From: an uncultured delta proteobacterium
GTDB lineage: Bacteria; RBG-13-61-14; DRUE01
Length of the DNA: 9,419 bases
Direction of reading: 5' to 3'
Assembly: GCA_903930515.1 (NCBI GenBank)
Contig: CAIYYW010000345.1
Span: 1-9,419 of the forward strand
In this document: piece by piece, positions 802 through 9,419 of the stretch
Position numbering within the stretch: the stretch's first letter is position 1
Layout of the letters: each line of letters starts with the position of its first letter
Position numbers and translations under genes: made by a program
Notes under the pieces: generated by a model
What the model was told of the DNA's origin: nothing
Databases searched by the model: none
What the model saw: only the letters and a program-made list of their open reading frames with translations

Positions 802-2469
802 CTACTTGCCGCCGCAAGCGCCGCCGCAAGCTCCGCCTCCGCCTCCGCCGCCTCCGCCGCCTCCGCCGCAAGCGCCGCCTCCGCCGCCTCCGCCTTTACC
901 GCCGGGCTCAGGGCCGCTGAGTTTCTTGTCGCAGTTCTTCAGCGTCTCGTTGTACTTGCAGAGCTGAGTCTTTATCTCTTCGGCGGAGAGACCGGAGAAC
1001 TGGAACTTGTTGTTGGCCAGCCAAGTAGGGCTGCCGCCGATGCCCAGGCCCTCGGCGATCTTGATGTTCTCGCGCAAGATCTGCTTGCCTTCACCGGCGA
1101 AGCACTTCTCAATCACCCCGGCATTGATACCGTTAGAGCCGGTACACTCCTGCCAGTTCTCGGAGGCGATGTTTTGGTTGCGGCACAGGATGTAGTCCAT
1201 GTACTTGAAGTTCTTCTTGTAGTTCTTGATCGCGCACAGTTCTCGGATATCCTCATCCACCTCGGCCTGGCCGTGCATAGACTTGAAGCCTTCACCCTCG
1301 GCCGAGGCAATGAAATTAACATTGAACGCGATGCCGTTGTTGAAATTCTTCAGCACTTCGGACATGGCGTTCAGCGCCTTCACGCCGAATGGGCAGTGGG
1401 ACATCACGAACACGTCCAGGCGCTTGGGCGCCTCCTGGCGGCACACCAGGGCTTCTTTGCAGTCCTGGTCGTCGCAGTCCACCTTGCCGTCTCCGGTGTC
1501 GTCCTGCTGGTTGTCGCAGATCTCCTTGGAGGGGTCGAACTTGGCGCCCGCGCTTAACTCGAGGTAGTCGCCCCGGGGTTGCAGTAAGCGCTTGACGCGC
1601 TCGTAGTTGTCGGCCTTCTCCACATCCTTGCCGAACAGGATGGCCGGCAGCAAACTCAGGCCGAGATCGGTGTAGAACTTTTTCCCGTCCTCCTCGGTGT
1701 ACTCCTTCACGCTGAACTGGGCGCCTGGGAACATGCCTTCCAGGCGGCCTTTCCATAGCTCGGCGCTGCACCCGGCGCAACGCTTGTCGGTTACGATGGT
1801 GATAAGAACCTTGACCGGCGGAGGCAGGGTTGCGCACAGCGCCGGCTTATCCTTTGGAAACGCGTCGCAGATAGCGCGCGAGAAGGCCATCTCGCCGCGC
1901 GGCCCCTTGTAGGGCTTGCCGCCGATGAAGATGGTGGGGCTGCCCCCGGCTTTACGGGCCTGGGCCTTGGCGAAGGAGGCCCTGAGCAACTCGGCGGACT
2001 CGGGCCCCTCGTAGCAGGCCTTCAACTTGGCGGTGTCCAGTACGATCTCCTGCGCGCAACCTTCCCAGTTGCCCGGGATGTCGCGCGGATTCTTGTTCAT
2101 GCAGTTGATGAACTTGAGCGCCAAGGCCGGGCGGTACTTCATGGCGCACAGTTGCACCTGGTCGCCCTTGACCTCGCTCTCGCCGTGCAACGAACTAAAC
2201 TGCCCGTTGGCGTCCTTGCCGATGAAATCAATGGCCAGGTCCACATCCCCGCCCATCTTCTCCATGACCGGAGCGATGGCCTGCTCGACCTGCGTGCCGT
2301 ATGGGCACTTCGACATAACATAAAACTCTACCTTGGCCTTCTCAGCCACGGTCTGCTTGGGGCCCTCGCTTCCCCTGGAACAACCCGGGACCACGCACAG
2401 GAGGCCGGCCAGCAAACCGGCGGCCAGTCCGAAAACCAAGATCCCATAGAATTGATACATTTTTCTCAT
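802..2469 (-). CDS. Lipoprotein with three thioredoxin-fold units and Gly/Cys-rich C-terminal tail
   Basis: This 555-residue protein was probably exported and anchored as a lipoprotein: basic start, hydrophobic stretch about 7-28, then VVPGC with Cys30 as a plausible lipidation site (Pro at -2 is not ideal). Unit 1 (about 46-212) has YVMSKCPYG at Cys55 and a GGSPT cis-proline-type loop at 175-179. Unit 2 (about 219-300) is thioredoxin-like with CAGC at 231-234. An Asp-rich insert with Cys residues (318-343) follows. Unit 3 (about 351-515) repeats unit 1, with FVMSHCPFG at Cys359 and GGSPT at 478-482. The last about 33 residues are Gly with Cys533, Cys547 and Cys551. Units 1 and 3 resemble DsbA/GILT-like thiol proteins but keep one Cys of the usual CxxC. 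Start choice: GGGGG lies 7 bases before the ATG. It probably acts in periplasmic thiol chemistry or metal/arsenic binding; the role is inferred from the domains and from lying beside acr3. Substrate unknown. Confidence 0.85.
   Translation of the reverse strand: MRKMYQFYGILVFGLAAGLLAGLLCVVPGCSRGSEGPKQTVAEKAKVEFYVMSKCPYGTQVEQAIAPVMEKMGGDVDLAIDFIGKDANGQFSSLHGESEVKGDQVQLCAMKYRPALALKFINCMNKNPRDIPGNWEGCAQEIVLDTAKLKACYEGPESAELLRASFAKAQARKAGGSPTIFIGGKPYKGPRGEMAFSRAICDAFPKDKPALCATLPPPVKVLITIVTDKRCAGCSAELWKGRLEGMFPGAQFSVKEYTEEDGKKFYTDLGLSLLPAILFGKDVEKADNYERVKRLLQPRGDYLELSAGAKFDPSKEICDNQQDDTGDGKVDCDDQDCKEALVCRQEAPKRLDVFVMSHCPFGVKALNAMSEVLKNFNNGIAFNVNFIASAEGEGFKSMHGQAEVDEDIRELCAIKNYKKNFKYMDYILCRNQNIASENWQECTGSNGINAGVIEKCFAGEGKQILRENIKIAEGLGIGGSPTWLANNKFQFSGLSAEEIKTQLCKYNETLKNCDKKLSGPEPGGKGGGGGGGACGGGGGGGGGGGGACGGACGGK
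805..903. repeat. Low-complexity GGN-codon tract encoding Gly/Cys tail
   Basis: On the + strand this reads as runs of ccgcct/ccgccg units broken by three gcaagc/gcaagct-type units. On the coding (-) strand it encodes near-pure glycine with three Ala-Cys-Gly-Gly insertions, the last two adjacent just before the stop. The hexamer-like repeat could change length by slippage. It belongs to the 3' end of the lipoprotein gene and is in frame throughout. Confidence 0.8.
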
Positions 2470-2722: not shown

Positions 2723-3766
2723 TCAGGCCCTCTCGGCAAAATATTTTCTCTTGAAATAGAGCGCCAGGACGACCAGACTGATCATCACCGGCACTTCAAC
2801 CAGCGGCCCGATTACCGCGGCAAAGGCCTGGCCCGAAGAGATCCCGAACACCGCCACCGCCACCGCAATGGCAAGCTCGAAATTATTGCTGGCCGCGGTG
2901 AAAGCCAGGGTTGCGGTCTTGCCGTAGTCGGTGCCGATTTTTTTGCCCATGAAAAAACTGACCAGGAACATAACCAGGAAATAAATCAGGAGCGGGACCG
3001 CAATCCGAACCACATCCAGCGGGATTTTGACGATGTATTCGCCCTTGAGCGAAAACATGACGATGATGGTGAAGAGGAGCGCGATCAGGGTGAGCGGGCT
3101 GATGGTCGGGATGAATTTTGTGGTGTACCAGTCCTTGCCCTTGAGCTTGATCAAAACCAAGCGGGTGATCATGCCGGAGAAGAAGGGGATGCCGAGATAG
3201 ATGAACACGCTCTTGGCGATCTGGGCGATGGTGACCTTGACCACCGAGCCTTCCAGGCCGAACCAGGTGGGCAAAACCGTTATGAAAATATAGGCGTAAA
3301 CCGAGAAAAAGAGCATCTGAAAAATGGAGTTGAACGCCACCAGGCCCGCGGCGTATTCGGTGTCGCCTTCGGCCAGGTCGTTCCAGACAATCACCATGGC
3401 GATGCAGCGGGCCAGCCCGATCATAATCACGCCGTACATATATTCCGGCCGGTCGGGCAGGAAAATTATAGCCAGGAAGAACATCAGGACCGGGCCGATA
3501 ATCCAGTTTTGGATCAGGCTCAATCCCAGCACCTTCCAGTTCCGAAACACCGGGCCCATCTCCTCATACTTCACCTTGGCCAGCGGCGGATACATCATCA
3601 GGATCAGCCCGATGGCAATGGGCAGGTTGGTGGTGCCCACGCTGAATTGGCCGATGAACGCGGGCGCCCCGGACCAGAAATACCCAAGGCCCACGCCCAC
3701 GGCCATGGCCGAAAAAATCCACAAGGTCAAAAACCGGTCCAGCAGAGAAAGCTTTTTCCTCTCCAT
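2723..3766 (-). CDS. acr3: Acr3-family arsenite efflux permease
   Basis: This inner-membrane protein of about 347 residues, with about ten hydrophobic segments, exports arsenite using the ion gradient. It carries the Acr3 signatures: [17 protein letters not shown] in the fourth membrane region, with the conserved cysteine (about residue 121), then [20 protein letters not shown] near 290-310, and [10 protein letters not shown] with the conserved glutamate near 324. Length is normal for the family. Start choice: GGGAGG at 3778-3773 lies 6 bases before ATG at 3766, whereas the GTG six bases upstream (3772) directly abuts it. The ATG is 2 bases after the stop of the preceding unknown gene, so the two are probably translationally coupled. 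It is the last gene of the ars operon. Confidence 0.95.
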
Positions 3767-3768
3767 CG

Positions 3769-4215
3769 TCACCCTCCCAGAAAAAGTATCGTCGCGAAAT
3801 AATGGTCGCGCGGATTTTTAAACAGGAGCGGGAGTTTGAACTGGCCGCGCATCATTCCGAAAGCAAAAGAGCTTATGCTGTCCGAGAGCGCGATCAGGCC
3901 CAGATGGATGGCGTGCAATTCCACCTGCGCCAAAGGCTCCGGCCCTTCATCCAAGACCCGGCTGGTCCAGCCCTCGGAACCAATTTCCACCAGGAGCGGA
4001 TCGCAATAGAAATCCAACTGGCGGATTATGATGCTCTTGCCCGCTGAGCTCGCGAGCCAGCGTTGGATCAGCTTTTTTCTCGTCGGGTCCGCGTAGGCGC
4101 GTTTAAACAGCGGCTCCAGATGAAAATCTTTCACGCTCTCCCAGAACATATTATGGTGCGCCTTCAGACCCGCGACCATCCCCGTCGGATTTTCTGATCC
4201 GGATTCCTTGGGCAT
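3769..4215 (-). CDS. Unrecognised 148-residue protein within the ars operon
   Basis: I do not recognise this family. The product is 148 residues, soluble-looking and mixed in charge, with a single Cys in the segment [15 protein letters not shown] (about 65-79) and several histidines (20, 21, 32, 101, 104). No signal peptide, thioredoxin motif or clear membrane segment is seen; the stretch [20 protein letters not shown] (101-120) is mildly hydrophobic. It begins 4 bases after the small thioredoxin stop and ends 2 bases before the acr3 ATG, and its 3' end holds the acr3 ribosome site. This placement argues for a real gene serving the operon. The frame is open over its full length. Function unknown. 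Confidence 0.7.
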
Positions 4216-4219
4216 TAAA

Positions 4220-4462
4220 TCACTTCTTCAATTCCGAAAGAATCTTCTTCAACTCCGGCACCGCGGGAATTTTGCCCTGGCTGATAATTTTCCCGTCAAC
4301 CACCACCGCCGGGGTCATCATTACGCCCAGCTTGGCAAACTCGGCCACATTGGTGATATGAGAAATATCCGCGGCCAGGTCCAGCTCCGCGCAGGCGTTG
4401 ACAACATTCTGCTCCGTGGTCTGGCATCTCGGGCATCCCGAACCTACGACTTGAATCTTCAT
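4220..4462 (-). CDS. Small cytoplasmic thioredoxin (redox-active disulfide family), CPRC active site
   Basis: The product is an 80-residue thioredoxin-fold protein beginning MKIQVVGSGCPRCQ, with active-site Cys10 and Cys13 and a TPAVVVDGKII cis-proline segment. This is the short 'redox-active disulfide protein 2' (thioredoxin_3, MTH895-like) type. It has no export signal, so it acts in the cytoplasm. Start choice: AGGAGG (4477-4472) is 9 bases before this ATG but only 3 before an ATG two codons upstream (4468), and the MKI start is usual in the family. It sits just downstream of the arsG-like gene. From memory, arsEFG clusters include a small thioredoxin-type partner, so this may be the ArsE-like member, but I do not assign the symbol. 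It may supply electrons to the ArsG-like membrane protein. Confidence 0.88.
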   Translation of the reverse strand: MKIQVVGSGCPRCQTTEQNVVNACAELDLAADISHITNVAEFAKLGVMMTPAVVVDGKIISQGKIPAVPELKKILSELKK

Positions 4463-4486
4463 GGCCATTTGCCTCCTGTTATTTTT

Positions 4487-5176
4487 TTATATTATTCCGA
4501 AAACATATGACAGCACATAATAAATTCCGACTAAAATAAAAATCACCCCGGTAATCCTTTTTGCGTAAAACTCCACCCGGTTCAGGTTTTGATAAAATTT
4601 GCCCACATATTCGGAACCGGCCGCGATCACCACCGCGAACCCCAGCACCGGCAGCGCACTGCCCAGGCCGTAGATCAAGGGCAGGCCGATTGCGGATTTC
4701 ACCTTCAAAGAAATCGGGATCAGGCTTCCGAAAAAAAGCGCCGCGGAAATTGGACAGAAGGCCAGGGCGAATAACGCTCCCAATAAAAAAGTTCCGATCA
4801 GGCCGGATTGGCTCAGTCGCCTGGACAATTTTTCCGGGGGCGTAAAGCCGGGCAGATTCATTTTGAATAAATTCAGTAAAAACATTCCGATCAGGATCAG
4901 GATGATGCCCAGAATTTTGTTGATATAAATCTGGAGAAAATTGGAGAGCGCGGAGATGTTGAGCGCCAGCTTGACAATGATCATACTGATCGCGATATAG
5001 GTTATGCTCCTGCCGAGGCCGTAAAGGATTCCGGATAAAAACACAATGGACTTTTTTGAGACCTGGTAAGAGATCAGAGAAATAGAGGCGATATTGGTTG
5101 CCAGAGGGCAGGGGCTGATTGAGGTCAAAATTCCTAGCCAGAGCGCGGAAGTCATCCCTAAAAGATACTCGTTCAT
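4487..5176 (-). CDS. arsG: ArsG-family / CcdA-like membrane protein
   Basis: The product is a 229-residue polytopic inner-membrane protein of the CcdA/DsbD-transmembrane superfamily. SISPCPLATNIASISLIS (Cys23) and LAFCPISAALFFGSLIPIS (Cys141) are the two equivalent half-repeats, each with a Cys-Pro at the membrane helix, as in CcdA where this pair passes electrons across the membrane. The first motif matches proteins named ArsG in arsEFG operons, where ArsG is described as an efflux permease for trivalent aromatic aminoarsenicals. Six hydrophobic segments are visible. The ATG overlaps the arsF stop (ATGA, 5173-5176) with AAGGA 6 bases upstream, so translation is coupled. Efflux and disulfide transfer are both possible roles; the retained cysteine pair favours at least a redox function. 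Confidence 0.88.
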   Translation of the reverse strand: MNEYLLGMTSALWLGILTSISPCPLATNIASISLISYQVSKKSIVFLSGILYGLGRSITYIAISMIIVKLALNISALSNFLQIYINKILGIILILIGMFLLNLFKMNLPGFTPPEKLSRRLSQSGLIGTFLLGALFALAFCPISAALFFGSLIPISLKVKSAIGLPLIYGLGSALPVLGFAVVIAAGSEYVGKFYQNLNRVEFYAKRITGVIFILVGIYYVLSYVFGII

Positions 5177-5739
5177 TGCTGATCCTTGAGAAACCCCCGA
5201 ACCTGTTCTTGAACATATTTAATAAAAGCCGGCTGGTCCCGCACCAAAGTCCAAATTTGATCCAGGTTCTTCCATTGCTTTTGTTGTCCCCGTTCCAGCT
5301 CCACCAATACCAAGGACTTGGTGATCAGTTGATAGTCCTGGATAAAATGGCGGTTGTCCGGCTCGTCCACATTGACCGAGAGAAACTTGAGTTTGCCGGC
5401 TTGCAGTTCCTTCCCGAATCCGGCTTCAATCGCTGCTTTTGAATATTGCTCAATAGTCAAACAAGTAGAACAGCGATGAGTGCCGTGAAAATAATAGGCG
5501 ATAACCTGCAGCGCCGGCTGATCCTGACATTCCGGATCGTTGGCCCCGCAATGGGAGTCGGGATTGGACGCGGTTTCCTGGCCAGGCTCAGGCTCCGACG
5601 GAGGCGATGCTTGAATCCCGGTTTGCGCCGGAGGGGTTTGATCTTTCGCATTATGCTTGGCATAGCCGAACACCAGATAAGCGATGCTGGCCATCACAAA
5701 ACCTGAAAGAATGATTTTGATAATTTTCTTGGGATTCAT
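5173..5739 (-). CDS. arsF: ArsF-family membrane-anchored periplasmic thioredoxin-like protein
   Basis: This 188-residue protein has an uncleaved-looking signal anchor (about 6-27), a Pro/Glu-rich linker with Cys64 and Cys71, then a thioredoxin-like domain from about 78. The domain motif YYFHGTHRCSTCLTIEQYS has CSTC at 90-93, and FLSVNVDEPDNRHF and TKSLVLVELERG follow. These match the family named 'nitrophenyl compound nitroreductase subunit ArsF', reported with ArsE to act on nitro-aromatic arsenicals such as roxarsone. The active site would face the periplasm. It overlaps arsG by 4 bases and follows the permease gene by 26 bases, with a GGAGGAG run upstream. The extra linker cysteines could form a second disulfide. 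Family call good; the reaction in this organism is inferred. Confidence 0.88.
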   Translation of the reverse strand: MNPKKIIKIILSGFVMASIAYLVFGYAKHNAKDQTPPAQTGIQASPPSEPEPGQETASNPDSHCGANDPECQDQPALQVIAYYFHGTHRCSTCLTIEQYSKAAIEAGFGKELQAGKLKFLSVNVDEPDNRHFIQDYQLITKSLVLVELERGQQKQWKNLDQIWTLVRDQPAFIKYVQEQVRGFLKDQQ

Positions 5740-5765: not shown

Positions 5766-7067
5766 TTATTTAAAAAACGCTCCGAAAAAGATTCCGGTCA
5801 GGGTTGCCATCACGATTACCAAGGAAACATAAGCGATGGTTTTTTTGGTTCCCAGGATGCTCCGGATCACCAGCATACTGGGCAAAGAGAGCGACGGACC
5901 GGCAAGGAGCAAAGCCAACGCGGGTCCTTTGCCCATTCCGCTCCCGAGCAAGCCCTGCACAATCGGAACCTCGGTCAGGGTGGCAAAATACATAAACGCG
6001 CCAACCACCGACGCGGAAAAATTGGCGAGAAAAGAATTCCCGCCCACGGATTTGCCGATCCAGTCCGGAGGGATGATTCCCTGTCCGCCCGGTTTTCCCA
6101 GCAACAAGCCGCTGATCAGAATCCCGATCAGGAGCAAAGGCATAATCTGTTTGGTCAGTCCCCAGGTGGCGCTGAACCAATTTTCCATCTCCCCCTTCTG
6201 GGTGCTGGTGAAAATCCCGAGCGCCGCGGCGCCTCCGGCAAAGGGAATGATCGGATGGGTCGGAAAAAGGATCGCGAGCGCAATCACCGCTGCCCCGGCC
6301 AAAACCATTTTCCACCATTTCATCCCGAACCATAGAATCAGGATCACTCCGAAGAGCAAGGCCGAAGCAGAGGTGATGATCCATTTGACGGAATAGATCC
6401 GATACCAGAATCCGCTCTCGGCCCCGGACTCGCCCCAATTGGCAAAAACCAAGATCGCGACCATTGCCGCGAAATATAAAATATTCTGCCAGAGCGGCCG
6501 CTTCACCTCCGGCTCCGGCAGGCTCATTTGCGCCTCCGCCCGTTCCTGTTCCTCGCGGCGGAAAAGCAAATGCATCAACAGCCCGATGACGATGCTGAAC
6601 AGAATCGCGCCCACTCCCCGCGCCACTCCTATTTGCAAACCCAGGATTCGGGCGGTGAGAATGACGGCCAGGACATTGATCGCCGGTCCGGAATAAAGGA
6701 AAGCGATGGCCGGTCCCAGTCCGGCGCCGTTCTTCCAGATGCCGGCAAAGAGCGGGAGCACGGTGCAGGAGCAAACCGCCAGGATGCCGCCGGAAGCCGA
6801 GCCGACCCCGTAAGCCAGAACCTTGTTGGCTTTGGGTCCGAGATACTTGATCACCGCGGCCTGGCTGACAAAAACCGAAATCGCCCCGGCAATGAACAAA
6901 GCCGGGATGATACAAAGAATCACATGCTCGCGCGCATACCATTTGAGCAGCTCCAGAGAGCCGATCACCGCGTCATTAAACCTGCCCCGGCCGAGCGGGA
7001 GATAGAACAAAACCAGGAATCCCGCGACGATCAAAACCAGCGCTTTCCATTCCTTCTTCCAGTCCAC
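5766..7067 (-). CDS. ArsP-like permease (COG0701/DUF318), probable organoarsenical efflux
   Basis: The product is a 433-residue inner-membrane permease of the family that includes ArsP (trivalent methyl- and aromatic-arsenical export) and other metal permeases. Two homologous halves are visible. The first has GGILAVCSCTVLPLFAGIW, with a membrane CxC pair (Cys99, Cys101), then FLYSGPAINVLAVILTARI. The second has FATLTEVPIVQGLLGSGMG and LLAGPSLSLPSMLVIRSILG. A charged cytoplasmic loop (about 170-192) joins them. Start choice: GGGGAG (7080-7075) lies 7 bases before GTG at 7067. A TTG two codons upstream (7073) is only 1 base from it, so GTG is preferred. The gene follows arsR by 42 bases and precedes arsF by 26. 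Longer than the short ArsP type. The arsenic role is inferred from the operon; the substrate could also be another soft metal compound. Confidence 0.85.
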   Translation of the reverse strand: MDWKKEWKALVLIVAGFLVLFYLPLGRGRFNDAVIGSLELLKWYAREHVILCIIPALFIAGAISVFVSQAAVIKYLGPKANKVLAYGVGSASGGILAVCSCTVLPLFAGIWKNGAGLGPAIAFLYSGPAINVLAVILTARILGLQIGVARGVGAILFSIVIGLLMHLLFRREEQERAEAQMSLPEPEVKRPLWQNILYFAAMVAILVFANWGESGAESGFWYRIYSVKWIITSASALLFGVILILWFGMKWWKMVLAGAAVIALAILFPTHPIIPFAGGAAALGIFTSTQKGEMENWFSATWGLTKQIMPLLLIGILISGLLLGKPGGQGIIPPDWIGKSVGGNSFLANFSASVVGAFMYFATLTEVPIVQGLLGSGMGKGPALALLLAGPSLSLPSMLVIRSILGTKKTIAYVSLVIVMATLTGIFFGAFFK

Positions 7068-7109
7068 TTTCAAACTCCCCGGTTTAATACAACTGCTTTC
7101 CTGATTATT

Positions 7110-7442
7110 TCAGCGGCCCCGGCCCTTGATCACCTTCAGCCGCTTCCGCACATCCTCCTTCATCGTCGCTTCCACGCAGCCCAGAAGCTGAGTGATGCAG
7201 GGACACCGGAGCCGGTAATAAACGCTGGTCCCGCGCTTCTCGGATTCAATCAGGCCGGACGCGCGCAGGATGGACAGGTGCTTGGAAATGGTGCTGATGT
7301 CGGACCCAACGAGGTCGGTCAACTCCCACACGCACCTCTCCCCGCAGGCCAGTTCGTCCACCATCGCCAAGCGCGCCGGATGCGCCAGCGCCTTCAAAAT
7401 CCGCGCCTGCAATTGATACCGTTCCTGATTCCCTCTCTTCAT
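7110..7442 (-). CDS. arsR: ArsR/SmtB-family arsenic-responsive repressor
   Basis: This 110-residue winged-helix regulator is first gene of the operon. ILKALAHPARLAMVDEL (15-31) and the recognition helix DISTISKHLSILRASGLIE (48-66) are typical, followed by a wing with VYYRLR. Cysteines are at 33, 37, 80, 82 and 89. The E. coli-type CVC metal site in helix 3 is reduced to GERCVWEL, while RCPC and GC at the C-terminal end give a cluster like those of ArsR variants that bind arsenic there. The ATG at 7442 has no Shine-Dalgarno sequence and sits at the edge of a perfect dyad and about 6 bases from the predicted transcript start, so a near-leaderless message is likely. A TTG at codon 11 is a weaker alternative start. 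Confidence 0.93.
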   Translation of the reverse strand: MKRGNQERYQLQARILKALAHPARLAMVDELACGERCVWELTDLVGSDISTISKHLSILRASGLIESEKRGTSVYYRLRCPCITQLLGCVEATMKEDVRKRLKVIKGRGR

Positions 7443-7556: not shown

Positions 7557-9116
7557 ATGAAAAAGACTTTTGTTCACGCCCTGATGTTGGTGTCCGTTTT
7601 CGGCCTTCTGGCCGGAAATCTTCGGGCGGAATCCGCGGCTCCCGGCACCGTAAATAATTTCAGCCTTTCCCCGGAACTGTCCCAAAAGCTTGAGCGATCC
7701 GCGCAGGAGGGAATGAAGAAGTGGCATGCGCCGGGACTGGCCATCGGAATTGTCCAGGGCAACACTGTGATCTGGTCCGGATACTTCGGATATTCGGACA
7801 TCAAGGAAAAGAAGCCGGTGGGCGAGAGCACGGTTTTCCGGATCGGGTCCATTTCCAAGACCTTCACCGCGATCGCGATGATGCAGCTTTATGAGCAGGG
7901 CAGGTTCCAGCTTTCCGATCCCGAGAGCAAATACACCCCGTTCCCGCTCTTCCGCAACCAGAGCGGCTGCTGTCCGGATCCGACCCTGCTGAATATTTTC
8001 ACGCACACCTCAGGCGGAGGAGAATTCAAGCGGCTGCAAGACGCCCCCAAATTCCGTCGTGATTTTTACGGCCGGACGAACTTGCGCGCGCGCAAAAGTT
8101 TTACCGAGCTTTTCAAAAACGGGATCCACACGCGGATTTGTCCGGGAACCAAATGGTCTTATTGCAATTTTTGTGTGGGCTCGCTCGGGATGGTGGTGGA
8201 GCAGATCAGCGGCCAGACTTTCCACAAATACACGGACGAGCGCCTTTTCCAGCCCCTGGGCATGAACTCAAGCAGTTTCTATGAAACCGACCTGACCCAG
8301 GCCAACCTCGCCGTCGGATATCGCTACCAGGAGAAGAAGAAAGATTTTCAACCGGACCGGATCTCTTTCCTGGACACGGATGTGGTCGCGGCCGGGAATG
8401 TTTATGCCACGGTCCCGGATATGTCGCGCTATATGATGGCGCTCCTTGGCGGCGGAAAGCTGGGCGACTTCCGGCTATTGAAAAAGGAAACCCTGGACCT
8501 GATGTGGACCCCGCACTATCAAACCGATCCCCGACTGCCGGCGATGGGGATCATTTTCATCCTGGAAAACCAATTCGGCCACCGACTGGTCTGGCATAAT
8601 GGCGGAATGCCGGGATTCACTTCCAGCATGATCCTGGCCCCGGATGACCGGCTTGGGGTGGTGGTCCTGAACAACGCTGATTCGGACGCGCCGGACAATC
8701 TTGCGCTCGGCATCTACAAAATCCTTTTCAACCACCAGCCCCCGCAAAATAAAATTGTTTCCCCGAAAGAGGCGCTAAAAAAACTTGCCTGGACTTATGT
8801 TTCCGCTCAGCCGGATTTTTTGACCGATCTGAGATTCATCATGGGGACCTTCGGCGTTTTGCAGGTGCGGCTCAAAAAGGACGGCCTGGTCATCGCTTTT
8901 CCGGGCAAGGACCTTCCGCTCGAGCAGGTGAATCCGGCGGACCCCTATTACTTCCGGGTCATTAATGACCGGAGCGAATCCGAGAATTTCATAATATTCA
9001 AGCCGGGCGCGGATGGCAAGGCCCGGAGCATTCTTTTCGGGTTTAACGAGTTTGTCCGGCGCGAGGATCAGCGCCGGGAGATTTGTCCCGCCAAAACGGG
9101 CGAGGAGAAAAAATAA
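7557..9116 (+). CDS. Secreted class C-type beta-lactamase/serine hydrolase
   Basis: The product is 519 residues with a signal peptide (about 1-24, cleavage after LRA) and a penicillin-binding-protein-like serine hydrolase domain (about 38-390). Catalytic motifs are SISK (Ser98, Lys101), YCN (Tyr202-Asn204) and HNGG (347-350) in place of KTG. A C-terminal domain of about 130 residues follows. These fit the beta-lactamase/EstB/D-aminopeptidase-type family (PF00144), acting outside the inner membrane on peptides, esters or possibly beta-lactams; the HxG-type third motif suggests esterase or peptidase as much as lactamase. Start choice: GAGGAG is 7 bases before the ATG and a signal peptide begins there, although the frame is open far upstream, antisense to the permease. 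Several Cys residues (138, 139, 195, 203, 206) may form disulfides. It is divergent from the ars operon. Confidence 0.9.
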   Translation: MKKTFVHALMLVSVFGLLAGNLRAESAAPGTVNNFSLSPELSQKLERSAQEGMKKWHAPGLAIGIVQGNTVIWSGYFGYSDIKEKKPVGESTVFRIGSISKTFTAIAMMQLYEQGRFQLSDPESKYTPFPLFRNQSGCCPDPTLLNIFTHTSGGGEFKRLQDAPKFRRDFYGRTNLRARKSFTELFKNGIHTRICPGTKWSYCNFCVGSLGMVVEQISGQTFHKYTDERLFQPLGMNSSSFYETDLTQANLAVGYRYQEKKKDFQPDRISFLDTDVVAAGNVYATVPDMSRYMMALLGGGKLGDFRLLKKETLDLMWTPHYQTDPRLPAMGIIFILENQFGHRLVWHNGGMPGFTSSMILAPDDRLGVVVLNNADSDAPDNLALGIYKILFNHQPPQNKIVSPKEALKKLAWTYVSAQPDFLTDLRFIMGTFGVLQVRLKKDGLVIAFPGKDLPLEQVNPADPYYFRVINDRSESENFIIFKPGADGKARSILFGFNEFVRREDQRREICPAKTGEEKK

Positions 9117-9118
9117 AG

Positions 9119-9419
9119 ATGAGACAATTTTGGATTTTTCTGGGGCTGGCTTGCCTGGCTTTGCCCGTGCTTTTGAGAGCGGAGGACCCGGCGCAGGTCA
9201 ACAATTTTTCGCTCAGCCCCGAACTTTCCCGCCGGCTGGAAGAATATGCGCAGGAGGGGATGAAGAAATGGCATACGCCCGGACTCGCAATCGGGATCGT
9301 CAAAGGCGATCAACCGGCCTGGCAGGGATACTTCGGGTACGCGGATTTGAAGCGGAAAAAACCGGTCCTGGAAGATTCGGTGTTCCTGATCGGGTCGGTT
9401 TCCAAGACCTTCACCGCCA
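9119..9419 (+). CDS. Second tandem beta-lactamase-type serine hydrolase, 3'-truncated by window edge
   Basis: The first 100 codons are visible. They encode a signal peptide MRQFWIFLGLACLALPVLLRA, then a domain starting with VNNFSLSPELS and reaching the catalytic SVSK motif (Ser93, Lys96). By eye about three quarters of 73 aligned residues match the preceding gene, so this is a tandem paralog. The signal peptides differ more than the mature parts. The ATG is 2 bases after the upstream stop, with GAGGAG at 9102-9107 (11 bases before it, rather long), so the pair is likely co-transcribed. The remainder lies outside the window. Confidence 0.9.
   Translation, partial: MRQFWIFLGLACLALPVLLRAEDPAQVNNFSLSPELSRRLEEYAQEGMKKWHTPGLAIGIVKGDQPAWQGYFGYADLKRKKPVLEDSVFLIGSVSKTFTA

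Follow-up and report, generated by a model that had tools for sequence, protein, structure and literature searches.

The description of arsenic operons that carry the genes arsE, arsF and arsG goes back to a 2019 paper of Chen, Zhang and Rosen, to judge from the citations of that work in PMC9144182 and PMC10190100, and the names given to the corresponding protein families assign nitroreduction to ArsE and ArsF and efflux to ArsG, the latter role also being given to ArsG in the cited passage of PMC9144182. Earlier, Castillo and Saier (2010, PMC2963123) had noted a CcdA protein, a thioredoxin and "redox-active disulfide protein 2" within ars operons in eight instances. They raised transmembrane electron transfer by CcdA, then judged it less likely, and linked the trio to arsenate reduction by ArsC. 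The trio that they described is probably arsEFG.

Here we analysed a window of 9,419 nucleotides (the whole stretch of DNA considered), which is part of a 3.65 Mb genome in 401 contigs (G000:C345). A sequence-only reading of this window had pointed out three adjacent genes with the cysteines CPRC, Cys23/Cys141 and CSTC, all of which we also read in the sequence, and had compared them to the logic of thioredoxin-CcdA systems, a comparison that did not mention the named arsEFG system or the 2010 precedent. The three proteins are an ordinary member of arsEFG, and lie within an ars operon on the minus strand that runs, in order, arsR, ArsP_1 permease, arsF, arsG, arsE, a gene for a 148-aa protein, and acr3 (Table 1), such that the trio is transcribed F-G-E on the same strand as ArsR, ArsP_1 and ACR3. 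The arsF stop and arsG overlap by 4 nt, and a gap of 18 nt separates arsG from arsE. Outside its own genome, the 148-aa protein was found only in one near relative (L006). Downstream of acr3, at 802-2469 (minus strand), the window encodes a lipoprotein-like protein of 555 aa whose thioredoxin domains are of the GILT/DsbA type (motifs CPYG, CPFG and CAGC). It also contains an acidic double-disulfide repeat and ends in a tail rich in Gly and Cys, and it could be a client of an outward-directed thiol relay. Divergent from the operon, on the plus strand, are two tandem, clearly related beta-lactamase-type serine hydrolases (7558-9116 and 9119-9419), the second of which is incomplete at the end of the window.

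Table 1. Features of the ars operon in the window, and ArsF genes with an in-frame UGA in relatives
Feature	Position	Strand	Basis
arsR, ArsR/SmtB-type repressor	7110..7442	-	NF033788 above cut-off
ArsP_1 family permease, upstream of arsF	5766..7073	-	Pfam PF03773, 5e-74
arsF, 188 aa: N-terminal membrane anchor or signal, linker, putative outside-facing thioredoxin-fold domain	5173..5739	-	NF040494, 118 bits (cut-off 60)
ArsF active-site codons, C90-S-T-C93	5461..5472	-	motif in 146/147 distinct ArsF
arsG, 229 aa: six-helix membrane protein of the CcdA/DsbD superfamily, predicted N-out/C-out	4487..5176	-	NF040495, 262 bits (cut-off 200)
ArsG Cys23 codon, first-half motif S-P-C-P	5108..5110	-	142/142; aligns with first cysteine of CcdA
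ArsG Cys141 codon, second-half motif F-C-P (P-C in CcdA)	4754..4756	-	142/142
arsE, 82 aa: cytoplasmic MTH895-type mini-thioredoxin	4220..4468	-	TIGR00412 ("MTH895/ArsE family"), 85.4 bits (cut-off 62)
ArsE active-site codons, C12-P-R-C15	4424..4435	-	CxxC in 133/133 distinct ArsE
148-aa protein outside known families, encoded between arsE and acr3	3769..4215	-	without Pfam or NCBIfam match
acr3, ACR3 arsenite efflux transporter	2723..3772	-	TIGR00832, 452 bits
UGA-containing ArsF genes with SECIS-like hairpin (relatives)	L156:2358-3623, L157:3088-3609, L185 about 1489-1860	-	UGA at first active-site Cys

Cys23 and Cys141 are the only cysteines of ArsG in the window. The protein matches PF13386 (DsbD_2) at 49.4 bits and PF02683 (DsbD_TM) at 36.1 bits, both above gathering, and its sole significant match of solved structure, by profile as well as by fold, is CcdA (5vkv, "membrane electron transporter"). 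Positive charges in loops 1, 3 and 5 suggest an N-out, C-out topology, and in a structure model that is weak (pLDDT only 65) the two cysteines lie at or beside predicted helix breaks. The sequence-only reading had placed both of them at the Cys-Pro positions of the two CcdA half repeats, which holds for the first and not for the second. In the first half repeat (S21-P22-C23) the cysteine follows proline, as in CcdA/DsbD, whereas in the second (C141-P142) it precedes proline, and in the alignment with 5vkv it is residue 143, about two residues away, that lies opposite the second CcdA cysteine. Across 142 distinct ArsG sequences residue 143 varies among I, V, T, L and M and is never Cys, whereas P-C stands in both halves of each of the 19 CcdA/DsbD-type paralogues whose match was readable. 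The best internal-repeat offset in ArsG is 120, in agreement with the 5vkv alignment; an offset of 118, which would set Cys141 opposite Cys23, found no support. Since the second cysteine lies across the proline from where each paralogue checked has it, the geometry of a disulfide between the two is not assured, and we regard ArsG as a relative within the superfamily that has an invariant motif of its own rather than as a CcdA, one that may work in a CcdA-like manner. In the L049-phylum sample described below the two groups are well separated, with ArsG proteins at 212 bits or more and CcdA-like paralogues at about 62 or less, and only broken genes and one protein (G209) in between.

Conservation and linkage were followed in two samples, the distinct-sequence counts being pooled from both. 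In the ArsF-first sample, an ArsF alignment was scanned against one genome per species (84,980 species), with no conditioning on ArsG, and gave 80 loci, in every one of which ArsG adjoins ArsF on the same strand; ArsE is missing from the examined stretch in five of them. In the ArsG-first sample, 484 genomes of two phyla were searched by HMM regardless of ArsF, and ArsF was present in all 95 genomes with an ArsG over the cut-off, comprising 25/25 in the phylum of L049, a Desulfobacterales MAG (247 genomes), and 70/70 in that of L021, an Omnitrophota MAG (237 genomes); the Fisher p of about 1e-94 ignores relatedness and MAG incompleteness. At locus level, ArsF adjoins ArsG on the same strand in 55/55 of the over-cut-off ArsG-first loci. 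The system is carried by about 30% of the sampled Omnitrophota-type genomes. ArsG occurs in only 2/398 sampled Pseudomonadota-type genomes, and ArsF in 5/295 of Nitrospirota type.

Non-conservation of the cysteine pair in ArsG beside ArsF had been named beforehand as a result that would refute a relay, and both cysteines are in fact kept in every distinct sequence, a degree of conservation that lies far outside what chance would give, such that among ArsG proteins over the cut-off neither the pair nor the presence of ArsF varies. The CxxC of ArsE is likewise without exception, and the ArsF motif occurs in all distinct sequences except a deleted second copy in L126, with Cys at position 90 in 143 and selenocysteine (Sec) in three. 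Some loci depart from the usual arrangement. A tandem duplicate of arsF precedes arsG at L081:4812-6697, and G399 likewise has two adjacent ArsF. One ArsF-like gene without ArsG (L163:1895-4108) adjoins instead a gene for a fusion of an anchored thioredoxin with a canonical CcdA domain, with an ArsC-like phosphatase after and a TauE-like permease before. This fusion was rejected as a Rosetta stone for ArsE, given its N-terminal anchor and a thioredoxin that is probably outside. The one ArsG-like protein without ArsF (L161) has a TlpA-like thioredoxin gene nearby.

The N-termini of the two thioredoxin-like partners suggest that one lies inside and the other outside the membrane. ArsF carries a hydrophobic N-terminal stretch (residues 5-27 in the window protein) that recurs in 164 of the 169 ArsF tested. 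An AlphaFold2 model (pLDDT 86) gives it a thioredoxin fold over residues 71-188 (VIA Z about 10), and it has no Pfam match. Alignment input for folding comprised the window and relatives' loci, with L005 and two other rows left out. ArsE in the window has no hydrophobic N-terminus, and in 153/159 cases the protein starts within 15 aa of its CxxC; it belongs to the Pfam family Thioredoxin_3, and its closest solved relative is MTH895 (1ilo, E 7e-12). No flavin domain, of the nitroreductase/flavodoxin-like type or otherwise, was recognised by Pfam in ArsE, ArsF or ArsG.

In three relatives (G112, G192 and G519), all members of one order (46 genomes), the ArsF gene that adjoins ArsG carries an in-frame UGA which falls precisely on the Cys90 column, the first active-site cysteine. 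The site peptides in this set are FHGTYQ-U-VTC, FHGKFR-U-PTC and FHGAYQ-U-PTC, and each gene has a SECIS-like hairpin of 8 bp whose loop of three nucleotides occupies nt 21-23 when the U of UGA is counted as 0; a stem of at least 7 bp at that position occurs in none of 138 Cys-type ArsF. SelB and tRNA-Sec were over the cut-off in both genomes checked, G112 and G192, and G519 is known by its UGA and hairpin only. ArsF is probably a selenoprotein in these relatives, and a natural Sec at position 90 argues that this residue is a redox nucleophile, metalloid binding by Sec also being compatible. The ArsF family is not named, by family id or by name, in a 2026 inventory of prokaryotic selenoproteins (PMC13188914), and no further UGA form was found among the 295 Nitrospirota-type genomes. 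Outside ars operons there are also divergent lone ArsF-like genes with U-x-x-C, at L158:2812-3276 and L188:1378-1779 (both plus strand; G040 and G518), with weaker hairpins than those of the three above; a signal peptide is absent from the G040 protein and present in that of G518. G393 and G023 have in-frame TGA within ArsG, and L027 has it at its end; these cases were rejected as Sec and put down to start-site, decayed-gene or frame effects.

We propose, with moderate confidence, that arsEFG is a transmembrane dithiol relay dedicated to the arsenic operon, a role for ArsG that we favour over the annotated one of efflux. Cytoplasmic ArsE would draw electrons from the thioredoxin system of the cell and reduce a Cys23-Cys141 disulfide in ArsG, which would pass them outward to the membrane-anchored, thioredoxin-fold ArsF, whose first active-site Cys (Sec in some relatives) would then attack an oxidised arsenic compound outside the membrane or, alternatively, an arsenic-damaged or oxidised thiol there. 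The ArsP_1 permease and ACR3 encoded in the operon would take care of exporting trivalent arsenic. A thiol relay had already been suggested by the sequence-only reading, and it is strengthened by the invariance of the six cysteines, the linkage of ArsF and ArsG, the topology and the Sec of relatives, while the thioredoxins near the ArsF of L163 and the ArsG-like protein of L161 speak for it too. The displaced second cysteine and the five loci in which ArsE is missing count against it. We infer the disulfide and the direction of electron flow, and the ArsG cysteines would also suit export of bound As(III).

That last point is the core of the alternative that survives best, which we nevertheless consider unlikely, namely that ArsG works as an efflux permease whose substrates are trivalent arsenicals (amino-aromatic or methyl), with Cys23 and Cys141 as As(III) thiolate ligands in the translocation path, and with ArsE and ArsF reducing the compound before export. 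Essential cysteines are known in other arsenical permeases, and an invariant pair would fit an As(III)-binding permease equally. The family names (NF040495, NF040494) point the same way, as does PMC9144182, which counts ArsG as an efflux transporter, citing Chen, Zhang and Rosen 2019. However, the operon already holds an ArsP_1 permease and ACR3, as operons in relatives usually do, the studied members of the superfamily of ArsG carry electrons via cysteines in TM1 and TM4, and a plain pump leaves unexplained both the pairing with an outward thioredoxin in 95/95 genomes and the Sec of ArsF.

What the relay would serve can be approached through the neighbours. Recurrent ones across 81 loci are ArsP, ACR3, ArsR, an arsenite methyltransferase (NF008823, 366 bits in one member), ArsC and a regulator that we take to be DUF134-like. 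An ArsP-like gene is found in 72/86 loci, and arsC-like genes in 11/81. In 17/80 loci an arsM gene of the same orientation lies upstream of arsF at a distance of no more than 850 nt, the gene order arsM-arsE-arsF-arsG being seen at L065:3909-4697 and in 16 others. No nitroreductase family was recognised among the neighbours recurring in at least four of the 81 loci, and no arsenic-transforming enzyme common to every locus was found. This last result would suit a relay for general repair, in which outside thiols (e.g. cysteines of transporters or lipoproteins) are kept reduced under arsenic stress and no arsenical is reduced, as would the generic thioredoxin fold of ArsF and the cysteines contained in the transporters of the operon; we hold this reading to be improbable given that the system sits consistently in ars operons beside ArsR, ArsP and ACR3, and in some cases ArsM or ArsC. 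The arsM and arsC-like neighbours, with no nitroreductase recognised among the recurrent ones, lead us to infer methylated or inorganic arsenic as the natural substrate and nitroaromatics as a side activity. The nitro- or pentavalent organoarsenicals proposed by the sequence-only reading find no support in the window, and nitroarsenicals are unlikely as the natural substrate. Direct nitroreduction of nitrophenyl arsenicals by ArsE and ArsF as the main biological role is scarcely credible, despite the family names and the title of Chen et al. 2019 as it is cited in PMC9144182 and PMC10190100, because both proteins are of thioredoxin fold without a flavin domain and apparently sit on opposite sides of the membrane, no nitroreductase was recognised among the recurrent neighbours, and synthetic nitroarsenicals are no expected pressure on the Omnitrophota-type genomes, about 30% of which carry the system in our sample.

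A fuller claim, put forward only tentatively, is that ArsG, rather than being a pump, forms a separate class of transmembrane thiol conduit in which the second Cys is displaced (C-P in place of P-C), that ArsF is its extracytoplasmic reductase and, in one order, an unlisted selenoprotein, that the substrates are methylated or inorganic arsenic, and that current annotation is mistaken about ArsG and misleads about ArsF. The interest lies in this functional reassignment of ArsG and in the selenocysteine variants of ArsF. Were it true, the curated efflux-pump annotation of NF040495 would change to that of an electron carrier, and arsenic resistance would gain a dedicated outward route for reducing power. 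The Sec form of ArsF would offer an independent handle on the identity of the nucleophile, and the displaced Cys of ArsG a natural variant for how CcdA-type carriers move a disulfide across the membrane.

Among known systems, the arsEFG of Chen, Zhang and Rosen (2019) is matched by the three window proteins, all over curated cut-offs and in an ars operon setting; it differs in the role assigned to G, which is efflux there, whereas the sequences analysed here speak rather for electrons passing through it. A Prevotella nigrescens plasmid carries the same set of F, G, thioredoxin and permease, plus ArsC and ACR3. The thioredoxin-CcdA/DsbD-periplasmic reductase systems of cytochrome c maturation and the Dsb pathway share a cytoplasmic thioredoxin, a membrane protein of six helices whose TM1 and TM4 each hold one Cys, and an outward thioredoxin-fold partner. 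In contrast to these, ArsG has C-P rather than P-C as its second motif, ArsE is an MTH895-type mini-thioredoxin, ArsF is a family of its own, sometimes with Sec, and the context is an ars operon.
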